This document shows, piece by piece, positions 5,673-52,975 of a DNA stretch of 64,000 nucleotides (position 1 is the stretch's first letter; every line of letters begins with the position of its first letter). The notes beneath the pieces are model-generated. The model had not been told where the DNA came from. It ran no database searches and was given only the letters and a program-made list of their open reading frames with translations. Made by a program: the position numbers and the translations under genes. Origin of the DNA: Yersinia kristensenii (GTDB lineage: Bacteria; Pseudomonadota; Gammaproteobacteria; Enterobacterales; Enterobacteriaceae); the NCBI RefSeq assembly GCF_900460525.1, contig NZ_UHIY01000001.1, positions 3,968,001 to 4,032,000 of the forward strand, given 5' to 3'.

Positions 5673-5944
5673 GTAGCCTTTTTTAATATATCCCTTTCCA
5701 TTTCAACGCGTTGAAGTCTTTTCTTCAACTCACGTATCTCAATCTGCTCAGGTGTCATGGGTGAAGCTATGGGTGATTTTCCCGCTCGCTCTTCTTTCAG
5801 TTGTCGAACCCATTTATCCATCGTGGATTTGCCGACATTCATCGCAGTGGCAGCGGCGGCAACGGTGTAATGCTGATCGAGTACAAGCTGGGCAGCCTCG
5901 AGGCGAAACTCGGGGCTAAAATTGCGTCTGTTACGTCCGGTCAT
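5672..5944 (-). pseudogene. IS3-family transposase OrfA, truncated by IS30-type insertion
   Basis: The first 91 codons encode an IS3-type OrfA: a helix-turn-helix region ([14 protein letters not shown], then [13 protein letters not shown]) and a leucine-zipper-like coiled coil ([20 protein letters not shown]). The frame then enters the IS30-type end and reads foreign sequence to 5537. Without the insertion OrfA would continue [12 protein letters not shown] and stop. OrfA supplies DNA binding and oligomerisation to OrfAB and can inhibit transposition when made alone. Confidence 0.88.
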
Positions 5945-6017
5945 AATGTCACCTGTTTTGACTATGAGGTGATGATATCACCTCTATTCAGGTGGCCAAA
6001 TTCACTATGCCACTACA

Positions 6018-6323
6018 CTGATATATACGGAAGTTTATCGGGAGAAGTTTAGATGAGTACAAAAATGTATTCAGGGAGGCTAACTCAACATGCAGCTGAA
6101 GTTCCTTCAGGGTTATAACCCCGCCTCAGCCACTAAAAATCTATATCACTGAATTTCAAGAGAACGTTTAAGCCTTGATAAATTCAACTCCATACTGTCA
6201 GTAATTAATCCTCCTTTCGGCTATATGAAAAACGCAATGCCATTAGCGCTTATCACAGAGCAACGTGAAAGCGATATTTGCAACATGAAGTTTTCAGATC
6301 TTCGGGATGATTTTTACACGTAG
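6018..6323 (+). pseudogene. Remnant of a lambda-type tyrosine integrase beside icd
   Basis: Reading across three frames gives KNVFREA, then QHAAEVPSG, then YNPASATK, then RERLSLDKF and finally AMPLALITEQRESDICNMKF. These line up in order with the middle of lambdoid integrases, the last part matching the segment with the first catalytic Arg (TGQR in the family, here TEQR). There are frameshifts near 6080 and 6113, an in-frame TGA at 6153-6155, and a stop at 6321-6323; the N-terminus and the rest of the catalytic domain are missing. It converges on icd exactly as intE does in E. coli e14. Coordinates of the frameshifts are approximate. Confidence 0.7.
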
Positions 6324-6345
6324 AGCAAAAAAGACAGGATCAAAA

Positions 6346-6376
6346 AGCCAACATAATCACTACAATTATGTTGGCT
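6346..6376 (-). terminator. icd rho-independent terminator
   Basis: On the minus strand a 12-bp perfect stem (AGCCAACATAAT and its complement) closes a 7-base loop and is followed by TTTTT. It lies 20 bp past the icd stop codon. Confidence 0.85.
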
Positions 6377-6395
6377 AAATGTTATGACTTACAAC

Positions 6396-7649
6396 TTACA
6401 TGTGTTGAATAATGGCGTCGCCAAATTCACTACATTTCAACAGTTTAGCGCCGTCCATCAAGCGCTCGAAATCATAAGTCACTGTCTTGGCTTGAATTGC
6501 GCCTTCGGTGCCTTTGATAATCAAATCAGCGGCTTCGAACCAACCCATATGACGCAGCATCATTTCTGCAGACAGAATGATAGAACCAGGGTTCACCTTA
6601 TCCTGACCAGCATACTTAGGTGCAGTGCCGTGAGTAGCTTCAAACAATGCGCATTCATCACCAATGTTAGCGCCAGGGGCAATACCGATACCGCCGACCT
6701 GTGCAGCCAAGGCATCAGAAATGTAATCGCCGTTTAGGTTCATACAGGCAATGACATCATACTCAGCTGGGCGCAGCAAAATTTGTTGCAGGAATGCATC
6801 AGCGATAACATCTTTAATAATGATGTCTGTGCCGTTGTTTGGATTCTTGATTTTAACCCACGGGCCGCCATCGATCAGCTCACCACCAAATTCCTCGCGC
6901 GCTAACTGGTAACCCCAGTCTTTAAATGCGCCTTCGGTGAATTTCATAATGTTGCCTTTATGAACCAGAGTGACTGATTCGCGATCGTTGGTAATGGCGT
7001 ACTCAATGGCTGCACGAACCAAGCGCTTAGTCCCTTCTTCTGAACAAGGTTTCACACCAATACCACATTGTTCAGGGAAACGGATTTTCTTCACACCCAT
7101 CTCTTCACGCAGGAACTTAATTACTTTTTCAGCTTCTGGTGAACCCGCTTTCCATTCAATACCCGCATAAATGTCTTCCGCGTTTTCGCGGAAAATCACC
7201 ATATTGGTCAATTCAGGATGTTTTACCGGGCTTGGCGTTCCCTCGTAATAACGCACTGGGCGCAGGCACACATACAAGTCGAGTTGTTGGCGCAAAGCAA
7301 CGTTCAGAGAACGAATACCACCACCCACTGGCGTGGTTAATGGGCCTTTAATGGCAACGCGATATTCACGAATCAGATCCAATGTTTCTTCTGGTAGCCA
7401 AACATCTTTACCATAAACATGAGTTGATTTCTCACCGGTATAGATTTCCATCCAGGAGATTTTACGCTCACCTTTATAGGCTTTTTTAACCGCAGCATCT
7501 ACCACGTTGATCATGGCTGGGGTCACATCAACACCAATGCCATCACCTTCAATAAATGGAATGATCGGATTATGCGGAACAACCAGTTTACCCTGAGCAT
7601 CGACAGTAATTTTATTACCTTCTGCCGGAACCACTACTTTGCTTTCCAT
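6396..7649 (-). CDS. icd: Isocitrate dehydrogenase [NADP+]
   Basis: TCA-cycle enzyme converting isocitrate to 2-oxoglutarate with NADPH. The 417-residue product starts [11 protein letters not shown] at 7649, behind an AGGAGAGG ribosome binding site; the frame is open further upstream to 7700 but that extension lacks one. The substrate-binding and phosphorylation site appears as [11 protein letters not shown] (the AceK-target Ser) and the metal-binding Asp segment as [14 protein letters not shown]. Divergent from rluE, as in E. coli. Its 3' end is the attachment site used by e14 and phage 21, and an integrase remnant lies just beyond it. Confidence 0.97.
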
Positions 7650-7779
7650 CAACCTCTCCTTCAGCGCAATTTTGTTAATGCCTTGTAAGATTCGTGTCAA
7701 TACTACTTGAATATTCGTTCCACGCCAATCCGAAACAGATTGAGGTATAATGCGCTAATCATTCGGAATCGCAATAATC

Positions 7780-8406
7780 ATGAATAAATTCTCTGTTAAA
7801 AATCACAAAGTTAACCGATTCAGCACCAAGACACAGGCGAAACAAGTCAAGCCGATTGCTCCACGTCGCGTCCTGTTATTCAACAAGCCTTTTGATGTGT
7901 TACCGCAATTTACTGATGAGTCTGGGCGCTCAACTTTGAAGGAATTTATCCCTTTTAGTGATGTTTATGCGGCGGGCCGACTCGATCGTGATAGCGAAGG
8001 TTTGTTGGTCTTAACCAATGATGGCAAATTGCAAGCCAGGCTCACGCAACCCGCCCAGAAAACCGGTAAAGTCTATTTTGTGCAAGTCGAAGGTGTGCCG
8101 GGCGATGATACACTCAGCCAGTTAAGAACTGGGATGACCTTAAAAGATGGCCCCACTTTACCTGCGGGTGCCGAGTTAGTCAGTGAACCTGAGTGGTTAT
8201 GGCCGCGTAATCCGCCAATTCGAGAGCGCAAAACTATCCCTACAAGCTGGCTGAAGATTACACTTTTTGAGGGTCGCAACCGGCAAGTCCGCAGGATGAC
8301 AGCCCATGTTGGCTTCCCTACCCTGCGTCTGATACGTTTTAGTATGGGAAATTTAAGCTTAGGCGACCTACAGCCCGGCGAATGGAAGGAGATAAACCAT
8401 GTTTAA
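7780..8406 (+). CDS. rluE: 23S rRNA pseudouridine synthase RluE
   Basis: RsuA/RluE-family enzyme that makes a pseudouridine in 23S rRNA (position 2457 in E. coli). The catalytic Asp lies in [19 protein letters not shown], and the conserved C-terminal motif GRNRQVRRM is present. The 208-residue product has a basic N-terminal extension and no S4 domain, as expected. The last codons overlap the start of nudJ by 8 bp, so the two are probably co-transcribed and translationally coupled. Confidence 0.95.
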
Positions 8407-34627: not shown

Positions 34628-34775
34628 TTTCTTACCTCAAATAATCATGGTGCTTTGTCTGTGGCCCTGCCTGATAAAAAGTGCCGAGGACACAAACAGT
34701 TGCTGTCATGAAAATTATCGGCTAAAAAGATGAGATATAAAACTGCTGAGTTTGACTCAATTAGGTTCCTCTTTT

Positions 34776-36566
34776 ATGACCAGCCGCCGCCTTGAACAGC
34801 AATATTTGCGCTTACTGAACCAGGTTGGAGTACAACCGGTGGAGATTACACTGCAAGAACTCGCGGACAAACTGAGCTGCACCAAGCGCCACATGCGAAC
34901 ATTACTGGTTCAGATGCAACACGCGGGCTGGCTAATATGGCAGGCAGAGGCTGGCCGTGGCCGCCGGTCACATTTGCAACTATTGCGGAACACTCATCAG
35001 CTTTTAATTGAAAAAGCGGAACAGTTATTAGATTCCGGTGGTTTTAATGAAGCGATTGCCTTGTTGAGAGAAGATAAACAGCTGATTATCCCCCTGCTGC
35101 AGGCCAAGTTAGGATATCGAATACGCGATGACTATCAAGCCCTGCGCATCCCCTACTACCGCACTATGTCAAATCTTTATCCCGGCACCCCCTTACGCCG
35201 CTCCGAGTTGCACTTAGTGCGACAAATTTTTAACGGACTAACACGGATAAATGAGGCGGACGGCGAAGTCACAACCGATTTAGCCCACAAATGGCGAATG
35301 CTCGATCCATTACGCTGGCGTTTTTATTTACGTCCAGCGGTGCAATTCCATGATGGTCGAGAGCTTTCCAGCCGTGACGTGGTCAGTTCGTTAACCCGCT
35401 GTGCAACTTTGCCGCTGTTTTCGCATATTCAAACAGTCAGTCAGCACGGATCACTCAGTGTGGTAATTGAACTTAATCAACCAGACCCTCGCCTTCCTCA
35501 GCTACTGGCCCATCATAGCGCCCTAATTTTGCCAGAGAACCATGCCGCGCAGCCGGATTTTGCTTCTCACCCCATAGGAACCGGGCCTTACCGAGTAGCT
35601 GAAAATGATGACTGGCACTTGCAGATGAAATCCTTTGACCACTATTTTGGTTTTCGTGGCCTACTGGATGAAGTTGAAGTGCTTATCTTCCCAGATTTAG
35701 CCCGCTCTCCCTCTGACACACCAGCAGTGCTATCTGAGCAACTGAGTATAGCGAATATCCAAAGTGCCACTTGGCTGAGCTCCAGCATCAGTGATATTGA
35801 TTATGTGTCTGGGTCTGCCGCCAGCCTGACCGGTAAACCATCAGACTCAACGCAAGAGATGTTTCTGGAACGCGGTGGGTATTTTTTACTGTGTGATAGC
35901 CGCTCAGCGCACTGGCACAGCATTAAACAGCGCCGCTGGTTGCGAAAAACGCTCAATCCTTATCATCTTATCCAACGTCTGATTGAACCCATTCGGCCGT
36001 TCTGGGTGCCCGCCAGCAGTGTCTTACCCACTTGGTTTCACGGTATCGACTCAGGAGAAGAGTGCCCTCCTTTCCCCATTGACAGCGCGGTGCAATCAGA
36101 CGATGCCCCGGTGTTAACTCTGGCTTATCATGCTCAGCACCCAGAATACTCAATGTTGGTGACTGAAATGACTCATATTCTGGCCGCTCAGGGGATTAAA
36201 TTGGCTGCAATCGAGCTGGATTACATCACCTGGGCCAAGGGCGAGGCCAATGTCGATTTATGGCTCGGCACCGTGAACTTTGCAGTTCCTGAAGAATGGA
36301 ATGTTGGCGCATGGTTATTGGGCTCCCCGCTATTGCGTCAATGCATGACTGGCGGTGATGATGCTAAGTTGCAAACTTCACTACACAATTGGCGCAATCA
36401 ATCCCTCGGTAGCGAACAATTGATCAGAGAGGTTATCGGCAGTGGGTGGTTGCAACCTTTGTTTCACCATTGGATGCGCCTAAAAGCCCCGCAACAAGCC
36501 CAAGGCGCGCACTTGAATAATTTAGGTTGGTTTGATTTCCAGACCACCTGGCTGGAGCCGGAATAG
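34776..36566 (+). CDS. SgrR-family transcriptional regulator
   Basis: About 596 residues from MTSRRLEQQYLRLLNQ; a TTG start at 34752 is possible but less conserved. An N-terminal winged helix (LQELADKLSCTKRHMRTLL) is followed by a periplasmic-binding-protein-like domain (from about 160; LRPAVQFHDGRELSSRDVV, PIGTGPYRV). SgrR itself senses sugar-phosphate stress and activates the sRNA SgrS. I find no SgrS in the divergent gap, so this is either a relocated SgrR or a paralogue with another ligand. Confidence 0.88.
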   Translation: MTSRRLEQQYLRLLNQVGVQPVEITLQELADKLSCTKRHMRTLLVQMQHAGWLIWQAEAGRGRRSHLQLLRNTHQLLIEKAEQLLDSGGFNEAIALLREDKQLIIPLLQAKLGYRIRDDYQALRIPYYRTMSNLYPGTPLRRSELHLVRQIFNGLTRINEADGEVTTDLAHKWRMLDPLRWRFYLRPAVQFHDGRELSSRDVVSSLTRCATLPLFSHIQTVSQHGSLSVVIELNQPDPRLPQLLAHHSALILPENHAAQPDFASHPIGTGPYRVAENDDWHLQMKSFDHYFGFRGLLDEVEVLIFPDLARSPSDTPAVLSEQLSIANIQSATWLSSSISDIDYVSGSAASLTGKPSDSTQEMFLERGGYFLLCDSRSAHWHSIKQRRWLRKTLNPYHLIQRLIEPIRPFWVPASSVLPTWFHGIDSGEECPPFPIDSAVQSDDAPVLTLAYHAQHPEYSMLVTEMTHILAAQGIKLAAIELDYITWAKGEANVDLWLGTVNFAVPEEWNVGAWLLGSPLLRQCMTGGDDAKLQTSLHNWRNQSLGSEQLIREVIGSGWLQPLFHHWMRLKAPQQAQGAHLNNLGWFDFQTTWLEPE

Positions 36567-36957: not shown

Positions 36958-37119
36958 ATGTCTCGCTTGAAAAAAGAAATCATTGAAACTAAAACCGTCA
37001 TTGATGTCAGTGACACTAAAAAAAACCAACCTTAGCATTTGGCTGAGGATGTTCTTGAACAGACCGCTGGCGGTGCTGGCTGGATAAAAGCGTTTGGGAA
37101 CTGGTCAAGAAGTTTTTAA
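36958..37119 (+). pseudogene. Double-glycine-leader peptide (microcin-like) gene with one amber codon
   Basis: The ATG sits behind GGAGG. The frame reads MSRLKKEIIETKTVIDV, continues for eight codons to an in-frame TAG at 37033-37035, and resumes in the same frame as LAEDVLEQTAGG followed by AGWIKAFGNWSRSF and TAA. The Leu residues at -12 and -7 and the Gly-Gly at -2/-1 fit leaders cut by C39-type ABC exporters. A single C-to-T change (CAG to TAG) would explain the lesion. Downstream are fragments of exactly such an exporter. The mature part is short, with two Trp, two Phe and three basic residues. Calling it a microcin or signal peptide is inference. Confidence 0.65.
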
Positions 37120-37128
37120 TCATCCAGT

Positions 37129-37151
37129 GGGCTGCCATTGGTGGCCCTTTT
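37129..37151 (+). terminator. Terminator after the peptide gene
   Basis: GGGCTGCC, loop ATT, GGTGGCCC then TTTT: an 8-bp stem with two G-U pairs and a T-tract, 9 bp after the peptide stop. It would let the abundant peptide message end before the export genes, as in many bacteriocin loci. Confidence 0.7.
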
Positions 37152-37206
37152 GTATACTCATCCACTGTCCAGTATGAAAATAATCGCTGGAAGCGAGGGT
37201 AGAGTT

Positions 37207-37540
37207 ATGCTTAATTTATTAATTGAAAAGAAGATTAACGAGAATTGTATATCACGTCTCCGATTGATGGCACATTAACTGGCATTACAGGATTAGCTGG
37301 CAACACAATTCCGATGAAATATGAAACCAAGGTCGGTGATATGGGCAGCGCCAACGAGTTTCTCTGGCCCGCGCTTTATATAAACGCCCGCGAATATTAT
37401 TTCTCGACGAAGCAACCAGTGACCTGGATATCGACAACGAAGCCCGAATTAATGACGCGATACGCGCATTGAAGATTACCCGAAATTTTGTTGCCCACCG
37501 CCCAACAATGATTGCCATGGCGGATCGAGTATTTGATCTC
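37207..37540 (+). pseudogene. Fused remnants of CvaA/HlyD-type adaptor and CvaB-type peptide exporter
   Basis: First fragment: LLIEKKINEN, frameshift, then YITSPIDGTLTGITGLAGNT, the lipoyl/barrel segment of HlyD-family adaptors. It runs straight into YETKVGDMGSA and, after a deletion and frame change that removed the LSGGQ signature, RVSLARALYKRPRILFLDEA, TSDLD and IVAHRPTMIAMADRVFDL-like sequence (here NFVAHRPTM). That is the C-terminal part of a CvaB-like ABC ATPase, with Walker B, D-loop and switch His. The N-terminal C39 peptidase, membrane domain and Walker A are missing. Two deletions therefore collapsed two export genes into about 330 bp. Confidence 0.72.
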
Positions 37541-38175
37541 AGCAAAAATGCTGAATTTCTTAACGAGAAGTTCTCCATCCCAAAACTTTTGATCAATGGC
37601 ATGGAATTTAAGAATGTAAAAGGCATATCAGTGAACACACCTCAGGGCATTGTGTTCAGCCCTGATAGCATTCCCCCTCATTCAATGATGATCGGGCTAG
37701 ATTTATTCAAAGGTAAGGCGGTGCTGATTGATTACCAAAAACAACGTCTGTCTGTCGCGGATAATACTCAAACACTGGGTATTAATATGACTGATGGGTG
37801 GATATCACTGCCGCTGCAGTTGACACCAGAAGGTGTCGAAATCAAAGTCGTAAAAATTATAAAGAATACAATATGCTTTTGGATACCGGTGCAACAGTGT
37901 CCGTATTTTTTAAAGAACGGCTTAAATCTCCTTTTGTTAGCCTGTCCTGCCAGAGAGTCATGAAAGAGATGGATCATGAAGGCTGCGAAGCATCAGATTT
38001 TCAACTTAACGAAATCGGTGCAACAGAGATTGGTTTTAATGCCGTACTGCTAGACGGGGCCTTCAACCAGATGGATACCGATGGATTAATTGGCAATAAC
38101 TTCCTCAACGAATTTGCCTTAGTAATTGATTTTCCAGGACAAAAACTCCACATCAAAAAATTCAAAACCGCATAA
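37541..38175 (+). pseudogene. Frameshifted protein with two retropepsin-like aspartic protease domains
   Basis: Joined in frame behind the ATPase fragment. Domain 1 lacks its DTG half but keeps IPKLLINGMEFKNVKG and MIGLDLFKGKAVLIDYQKQR. A frameshift near 37850 separates domain 2, which has NMLLDTGATVSVFF (the DTGA catalytic loop) and TDGLIGNNFLNEFALVIDF, ending KKFKTA. The two halves share the pattern G-(L/N)-(D/N)-(L/F)-(F/L)-x5-(V/L)-(L/V)-ID(Y/F), indicating a tandem duplication. The combination with a double-glycine peptide and CvaAB parts suggests a protease serving peptide maturation or immunity; that is inference. Confidence 0.65.
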
Positions 38176-38274: not shown

Positions 38275-39708
38275 TTAATGGTTACGAATATATTCGTCCA
38301 TATCAGTTTTCAGGTTATCAGATTTTGTCCCGAAGATAGCCTGAACACCTGAGCCTGCGACCACTACACCCGCAGCACCCAATTTCTTCAGACCCGCTTG
38401 GTCAACCTTGGAAACATCCGCCACACTGACACGCAAACGTGTGATACATGCATCCAGGTTAGTGATATTTTCTTTACCACCAAAGGCTGCTACCAGTGCT
38501 GCTGACATTTCAGTGCCACCCTGTACAGTTTGCTCTGTGGTTGTGTCTTCACGACCCGGAGTTTTCAAATTCAGTTTAGCGATCAACACTCGGAAAATGG
38601 TGTAGTACACCAGACCGTAGCAGATACCTACCAGCGGGAACAACCAGATACGGCTGCTGTTGCCACTCAGTACAATGAAGTCAATCAGACCGTGGGAGAA
38701 GCTGGTACCGTCACGCATCCCAAGCAGGATACAGATTGGGAAAGCCAGACCTGCCAGAATTGCATGGATAACATACAAGATTGGCGCCACGAACATGAAG
38801 GAGAATTCGATTGGCTCGGTGATACCCGTCAGGAACGAGGTCAGTGCTGCGGAGATCATAATCCCGCCCACTTTCGCCCGGTTTTCCGGCTTAGCTGAAT
38901 GCCAAATAGCAATGGCTGCAGCGGGTAGACCGTACATTTTGAACAGGAAGCCACCAGACAGTTTACCCGCAGTTGGGTCACCCGCCATGTAACGTGGAAT
39001 ATCACCATGGAATACCTGACCCGCTGCGTTGGTGTATTCACCAATTTGCATTTGGAATGGTACGTTCCAGATATGGTGTAGACCGAATGGAACCAATGCA
39101 CGTTCAACGACGCCGTAGATACCAAAAGCAACTACGGAGTTCTGATATGCTGCCCACTGAGAGAAAGTCTGGATAGCAGTACCGATTGGCGGCCATACGA
39201 AGGACAAAATCACCCCCACAAAAATCGCTGTGAAACCAGAGATAATCGGAACGAAGCGTTTGCCCGCAAAGAAGCCCAGATATTCAGGCAATTGAATACG
39301 ATAGAAACGGTTAAACATGTAGGCCGCTATCGCACCTGCAATGATCCCGCCCAGTACCCCAGTATCCGCTAAATGCTTAGCAGCAATTTCTTCTGCCGGC
39401 AGATGCAAGACCAGCGGTGCTACCACCGCCATGGTTTTCACCATGATGCCGTATGCAACAACTGCCGCCAACGCGGATACACCGTCGTTGTTGGTAAAGC
39501 CGAGCGCAACGCCAATAGCAAAAATCAATGCCATGTTAGCAAAAACGGAACCGCCCGCTTCTGCCATTACGTGAGAGACTACCGATGGTAGCCAGCTAAA
39601 ATTCGCGGAACCGACACCCAGCAGAATACCTGCAATGGGTAATACGGATACCGGTAGCATTAGCGATTTACCGACCTTTTGCAGGTTTGCAAATGCGTTC
39701 TTAAACAT
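38275..39708 (-). CDS. ptsG: PTS glucose-specific enzyme IICB
   Basis: Glucose transporter and phosphotransferase receiving phosphate from EIIA-Glc. 477 residues. The IIC membrane domain includes [17 protein letters not shown]; the IIB domain starts at about 395 and has the phosphorylated Cys in [18 protein letters not shown]. The leader carries an SgrS-type target and an Mlc-like operator. It heads the leftward neighbourhood ahead of ycfH/holB as in E. coli. Confidence 0.97.
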
Positions 39709-52400: not shown

Positions 52401-52975
52401 GGGACGCGATTCTAAATACACCGAGGAATTAGCGCCACCCCTTTTTCTGTGCTTAACTGTCAATCTGGCTATTTAAAGATAACGTTTGCGTGCATTTATT
52501 GTTTAATAAGACAACGATAGCCGCAAACACTGTGAATACAGTAAAAGAATCTTTACCTAGACAGGTAAAGTCATCTTGCTATATCAGTGTCAGCAATGGA
52601 ATAATGTGTTTAATTCTGCGTTGATTCTCGTTAGACCAAGAGACTTGTGGAATAATAAACTTTGCCTGATCACGCAAAAACGCAGCAATGGCGTAAGACG
52701 TAATGTGAAATCAAGCAATTAGCGGGCTGCGGGTTGCAGCTTGGTCGGCAAGTGGGTCAGGCTCTGTTGTCTTATATTCAGAAGCTACCCTTTATATAAA
52801 AAGCGCTGTTTTTCAGAAAGAAACGCAGGCTTACCGAAATAATGCGCCCCTATGCAGGCGACAACCGTGAGGTTGACGGCTTTGCTAGAAGACTCGGGGT
52901 CATCGGTTTACCCGACCATGAGGTTATTTTGCCCGCAGTTCTAATGACAATGTAAAAATAACGAGTAAGTTAAAG
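52401..52975 (+). promoter_or_regulatory. rluC-rne intergenic region with long rne leader
   Basis: 575 bp without a gene. In E. coli the rne 5' UTR is about 360 nt and lets RNase E cut its own message. Here a CAACC-GTGA-GGTTG hairpin with a GNRA-type tetraloop (52862-52875) is visible about 100 bases before the ATG, flanked by AT-rich runs. No ORF of note; no clean terminator. Confidence 0.6.

Follow-up and report, generated by a model that had tools for sequence, protein, structure and literature searches.

Why should a gene for an aspartic protease stand at the end of a ruined cassette for a secreted peptide? The question is raised by positions 36958-38175 of a 64,000-nucleotide stretch of the Yersinia kristensenii genome, the whole of which is referred to here as the window. 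The first-pass annotation of this DNA had recognised four remnants there, namely a peptide with a double-glycine (GG) leader, a HlyD-type adaptor, the C-terminus of an exporter ATPase and a tandem retropepsin-like protein, and had taken them for the wreck of a possible undescribed system built to the class II microcin plan, in which the protease might trim the peptide or provide immunity. Profile and DNA matches bear out the four pieces, in that order and all on the plus strand, and add a fifth that had been missed, the start of a radical S-adenosylmethionine (SAM) gene (Table 1). In itself the window locus, a defunct representative of an operon type already known, is only modestly interesting; what merits pursuit is the unnamed fifth gene of that operon, which has stand-alone (orphan) copies elsewhere and probably encodes a pepsin-like protein that confers immunity to a peptide directed at BamA.

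The GG peptide belongs to the XyeA family of triceptide precursors, and the gene lost by deletion encoded a cyclophane-forming radical SAM enzyme. An in-frame stop codon at 37033-37035 splits the open reading frame (ORF) of the precursor, and its two halves score 40.5 and 49.3 bits with the NCBIfam model TIGR04495 (RiPP_XyeA; cut-off 33). In relatives of the same genus the genes run xyeA, radical SAM gene, HlyD, C39 ATP-binding cassette (ABC) exporter and aspartic protease; at one such locus (L037) the radical SAM protein reaches 747.6 bits with TIGR04496 (XyeB; cut-off 450), the adaptor gene matches HlyD models, the exporter has a Peptidase_C39 domain and the last protein carries two Asp_protease_2 stretches. 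Of 21 precursors compared, 17 end in W-x-K/R-x-F, a set from which the window, L091, L086 (core lost), the G756 candidates, L172, L187 and L092 (from the same genome as L036) were left out; the L091 precursor ends W-C-L-R-F. Class II microcins, such as microcin V, likewise combine a GG leader with a HlyD-type adaptor and a C39 ABC exporter, but in the relatives of the window locus the precursor is of the XyeA family and is accompanied by a radical SAM maturase, which rules out the microcin reading. Nor is the system undescribed, since NCBI families exist for both XyeA and XyeB and the xenorceptides, which we take to be the Xye products, are on record. What lacks a name is the protease: no NCBIfam model scores above its cut-off with either of the two intact proteins scanned, and in a Xenorhabdus bovienii plasmid record in which xyeA and xyeB are annotated the protease is a 'hypothetical protein'. 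A five-gene cluster has reportedly been described for X. nematophila, so the membership of the protease may already be in print.

The pieces belong to one cassette. A DNA search of 25 genomes of the genus found cassette pieces in nine, that of the window included, and in 8 of the 24 others they lie in matching order over 3.2 to 5.8 kb. The ORF upstream of the cassette, presumably that of a SgrR-like regulator (sgrR), is conserved at six of these eight congener loci, and the downstream ORF, which we take to encode a PtsG-like transporter (ptsG), at five; seven of the eight have at least one flanking gene in common with the window, the exception (G001) having other upstream genes and a contig end downstream. 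The shared order and the shared flank together indicate a single cassette, as the first-pass annotation had supposed, which deletion has only shortened, and rule out an assembly of pieces from unrelated loci.

In wider samples the protease again accompanies the maturase. XyeB scores above cut-off at 8 loci in 7 genomes of a 392-genome family sample and at 9 loci in 8 of 30 genomes of the genus Xenorhabdus, the union of both samples being 14 loci. At 13 of these, XyeB and the protease are no more than 5 kb apart. Two gene orders exist, in which the protease either comes last or stands between XyeB and HlyD. The one XyeB locus without the protease is that of G135 (L086), which has an intact XyeB beside a XyeA with a lost core, with neither exporter nor protease found nearby. 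The control was drawn from 66 loci of a XyeB scan, of which six have the protease; the remaining 60 comprise L091 and 59 loci whose radical SAM genes are of other kinds, and in these, examined with flanks of up to 10 kb and with 13 of the 60 loci under 12 kb, the protease was found neither by a four-row profile made from the window's genus nor by a 23-row profile. At L091 both XyeA and XyeB are present, and no protease is found on its 5.9 kb contig. This comparison (13/14 vs 0/60), close in form to the enrichment check that had been proposed with the four pieces, rules out chance proximity, and the protease is a genuine member of the Xye cassette. Three further genomes with XyeB below cut-off (G252, G258 and G185) have the protease beside whole or broken XyeB genes, and it is present at two Photorhabdus loci. 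XyeB and protease distances are correlated across 21 loci (Spearman 0.77, with none of 2000 permutations as high), as those of any co-inherited genes would be, and XyeB changes more slowly than the protease (mean identity 0.78 vs 0.66 at six loci from the genus of the window). A whole five-gene cassette (L187) lies on an X. bovienii megaplasmid (NZ_FO818638.1) near transposase and recombinase genes, a location that offers a possible route of spread.

What is new is an asymmetry: in the Xenorhabdus genomes sampled the protease occurs without XyeB, and never the reverse. At thresholds of E <= 1e-8 for the protease and E <= 1e-60 for XyeB, the protease is present in 20 and XyeB in 8 of the 30 genomes, so that eight have both genes, 12 the protease only, none XyeB only and ten neither. 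The discordant 12 vs 0 gives a sign-test p of 0.0005, which is not a strict probability because the genomes are related. A looser XyeB search (E <= 1e-5) of the 12 protease-only genomes returned nothing in ten; in G425 it found a distant match interrupted by two stops, and in G433 a scrap of 30 residues. Seven of the 12 have an intact stand-alone copy (G393, G412, G413, G414, G422, G425 and G427). The count of protease-only genomes also takes in G426 and G433, in which an intact protease sits between XyeB and HlyD scraps; G435, whose copy adjoins a C39 exporter close to where the contig ends; G419, whose copy is interrupted; and G421, with a partial match of 61 residues. Five XyeB-bearing genomes of the genus carry extra, unlinked protease copies, some of them broken, and one such copy (G036) lies between a XyeA leader scrap and a HlyD scrap. 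Three wrecks in all thus keep an intact protease that has a XyeA or XyeB scrap on one side and a HlyD scrap on the other. Outside Xenorhabdus, stand-alone copies were found in G294, G094 and G136, with no XyeB match at 1e-15, and in G202, with two remote radical SAM matches only.

Purifying selection acts on these orphans. In five species a stand-alone copy occupies the same syntenic place, between two genes that we take to be SulP-like and KdsA-like, and the pairwise ratio of nonsynonymous to synonymous substitution rates (dN/dS) within its clade is 0.21-0.34 (10 pairs); in a second stand-alone clade, one wreck copy included, it is 0.17-0.25 (10 pairs), and in cassette groups, with two wreck copies among them, 0.10-0.28. 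A tree was built from 42 intact copies, of which 24 belong to cassettes, 3 to wrecks and 15 stand alone, omitting copies that are broken or partial, the window, G007, G001, the plasmid records and G756/G500; it is unrooted and carries long-branch warnings. On it the stand-alone label changes nine times, with at least six of the changes forced by well-supported branches, and both catalytic motifs are kept in all 15 stand-alone copies, which occupy several branches. Because at least six changes are forced and dN/dS is low, the stand-alone state has probably arisen repeatedly, and such copies are maintained.

An immunity gene would be encoded with its peptide, as at the XyeB loci above, and would be kept after the peptide genes are lost, as in Xenorhabdus and not in the genus of the window. 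The 12 protease-only genomes against none with XyeB only, together with the conserved orphans, therefore make the protease look like a self-immunity factor: once the precursor is gone, a maturation enzyme would have nothing to act on, but immunity would still be worth having. Of the roles first proposed for the protease it is thus immunity that the orphan copies favour, and we give somewhat better than even chances to a self-immunity factor that outlives its antibiotic and protects BamA by cutting or capturing the peptide. The wider proposition, that exported pepsin-like proteases serve both as immunity and as stand-alone resistance to BamA-blocking triceptides and have spread as orphans through Xenorhabdus and its relatives, is put forward more tentatively, at a little short of even.

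For the protease of a relative, the predicted structure is that of a pepsin-like aspartic enzyme with two lobes in a single chain; an N-terminal hydrophobic segment is of the signal-peptide type, and both catalytic aspartates are present in all 42 intact rows and invariant in a 74-row alignment. A putative endopeptidase of Bacteroides fragilis (PDB 9iy9) has the fold in common with the protease at 15% identity, a likeness that proves no function. Aspartic proteases bind extended peptides in their clefts, so a strand-shaped ligand would suit this one. Xenorceptide A2 is reported to insert into BamA as an extra strand, the xenorceptides being described as BamA inhibitors (PMC12971899). By analogy BamA is likely to be the target of the Xye peptide too. 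In the proposed sequence of events, XyeB would make three-residue cyclophanes on the precursor core, the C39 domain would cleave after GG, and HlyD and the exporter would carry the peptide out to block the BamA of competitors, as reported for xenorceptide. The protease, putatively in the periplasm, would cut or at least capture the strand-shaped peptide and so protect the BamA of the producer, and where the cassette was lost it could be kept as a stand-alone resistance gene. Computation shows the membership of the protease in the operon, its predicted two-lobed fold, the conserved aspartate pair and the orphan pattern, whereas its location, substrate and protective effect, and BamA as target of these particular peptides, are what we infer.

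The main rival to immunity is maturation, in which the aspartic protease would trim the exported peptide to its final form after C39 cleavage. The protease is in the cassette in both gene orders, its gene sometimes overlaps that of the maturase (on the X. bovienii plasmid xyeB occupies 5814-6992 and the next gene 6989-7852), and in some precursors (L081, L082 and L084) GG and the first Trp are separated by further residues that might call for a second cut. Many others have W directly after GG and need no such trimming, yet the protease is present in their cassettes, so that trimming between GG and Trp is weak as its needed role; the exporter, moreover, has a C39 domain of its own. The seven Xenorhabdus genomes with an intact stand-alone copy tell in the same direction, with no XyeB match at E <= 1e-5 in six and a remote, broken one in the seventh. 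We therefore consider maturation unlikely, though not negligibly so.

It is less probable still that a housekeeping protease with a general role in the envelope was drawn into the cassette, the orphans being the ancestral form. Distant stand-alone copies on a Paracoccus plasmid and in a Vibrio record would fit such an origin, as would the purifying selection on orphans. The distribution, however, is patchy, the gene being missing from 10 of the 30 Xenorhabdus genomes; of the 392 genomes in the family sample 15 have it, as do 3 of the 369 in a sample of the class (the genome of the window counted in both), and one of the other two class-sample genomes has both its copies beside XyeB-like genes. 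In the tree, with the caution that its lack of a root and its long branches impose, orphans nest among cassette copies and not outside them. Least probable is a non-catalytic binder, an export chaperone or sponge whose cleft would hold the strand-shaped peptide without cutting it, for which one could cite the peptide-binding habit of such clefts, a second motif of DTA or DSA in 4 of 42 rows and the loss of the first motif in the distant copy L191, but with which the retention of the catalytic aspartate pair throughout both alignments sits poorly.

Several observations nonetheless weigh against immunity. The same motif variants count here too, and in L191 the radical SAM gene adjoining the altered protease is intact; the Foldseek TM-scores of the protease are only about 0.5-0.6. 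Cyclophane peptides may resist proteolysis, and the orphan copies could serve another peptide or task. Within the window's genus no stand-alone copy was found, the protease being confined to the nine genomes with cassette pieces, and in three wrecks of that genus it has decayed along with the rest: the window copy is broken, that of G007 has DTE in place of DTG as its first motif, and that of G001 is truncated. Breaks also occur in some of the stand-alone copies (L163 and L169), and L083 in G393, though counted as stand-alone, is followed directly by 18 residues that resemble HlyD (E 0.001). In the distant gammaproteobacterium G756 no C39 exporter was found within the 18 kb examined around L190 and L191. 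Finally, the part of the literature surveyed gives no function for an aspartic protease in Xye clusters, and the primary xenorceptide paper, which falls outside that part, may already assign one. As to the arrangement in G756, a XyeB-like gene, broken in L190, stands directly 5' of the protease at both loci, and GG-type short ORFs lie upstream.

For a protease as immunity factor, the peptidase immunity to microcin C would be the closest precedent, MccF and MccG likewise being encoded by peptidase genes inside an antibiotic cluster. They differ in belonging to other peptidase families and in acting on peptide-nucleotides, whereas the protein here is a pepsin-like enzyme of the aspartic type whose N-terminus resembles a signal peptide. 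Homologues of MccG are mostly stand-alone genes (PMC9239234). The darobactin (daropeptide) clusters also make radical SAM peptides, and the family core, WNWx(K/R)xF, resembles the W-x-K/R-x-F ending of the Xye precursors; darobactin binds BamA as a strand (PMC9055067). The maturase family is different, the XyeB of L037 scoring 77 with the DarE model (cut-off 650). We know of no aspartic protease in the dar cluster, although no search was made for one. With the Xye clusters themselves the window locus has in common the precursor family TIGR04495, the maturase family TIGR04496 and the HlyD adaptor with C39 exporter, and differs in that its copy is dead and its maturase almost wholly deleted.

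Inhibitors of BamA such as darobactin, dynobactin and xenorceptide are being investigated as leads for use against Gram-negative bacteria. If the immunity reading is right, producers carry a protease that disarms the peptide and non-producers keep the protease alone, which would be a natural route to resistance that should be watched. Bacterial enzymes of the pepsin type would thereby gain a function, and a gene annotated as a 'hypothetical protein' would be explained.

The state of the window locus itself can be read against its congeners. In comparison with G019, about 1.97, 2.25 and 0.33 kb are missing at three places. What is left of the exporter ATPase has 91% DNA identity with the G007 exporter gene and 87% with that of G019, and the protease remnant 95% and 86% with the protease genes of the same two genomes. 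The xyeB match stops at 37236-37238 in comparison with three relatives, and no XyeB match is found anywhere in the genome of the window at E <= 1e-100; because XyeB is missing except for the start of its gene, the locus is a remnant and not a working Xye member. The protease frame is broken near 37850 and its Pfam and NCBIfam scores are under the curated cut-offs. The tandem structure noted at first is real in the relatives, but the window keeps only the second DTG (37882-37890), the stretch with the first having been deleted. The Xye (triceptide) cassette of the window is dead, disabled by deletions at three places together with the stop codon and the break in frame. The G007 and G001 loci are also decayed; at the former (L032) the protease frame is open, and maturase and adaptor are broken.

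Table 1. Remnants of the Xye cassette in the window and the ORFs on either side of it
Feature	Positions	Strand	Basis
XyeA-family triceptide precursor pseudogene, GG leader, core GGAGWIKAFGNWSRSF	36958..37119	+	TIGR04495; DNA match to G007, G019
Terminator-like hairpin between precursor and maturase genes	37129..37147	+	Scan
Start remnant of xyeB (radical SAM maturase), ~31 bases, remainder deleted	37207..37237	+	DNA match
HlyD-type adaptor fragment	37230..37311	+	DNA identity 94% to G007, 88% to G019
C39 peptidase ABC exporter, C-terminal part of ATPase	37308..37555	+	Pfam ABC_tran above cut-off
Tandem pepsin/retropepsin-like protein remnant	37555..38175	+	DNA match to relatives
Upstream flank ORF, outside cassette	34752..36566	+	ORF
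Downstream flank ORF, outside cassette	38275..39708	-	ORF

Three smaller observations concern the same DNA. A stem directly 3' of xyeA is found in 16 of 19 folded relatives, with varying sequence, and a hairpin at this point may keep the precursor in excess over the maturase. A protein of 316 residues (P0081) matches the protease at 54% identity over 78% and has an ABC ATPase as its sole Pfam domain; it looks like an exporter tail fused to the protease, and may be compared with the open frame at 37340-37960 in the window. The sole Rfam match in the window at gathering scores, at 52612-52950, is an ordinary RNase E 5' untranslated region element (RF00040).
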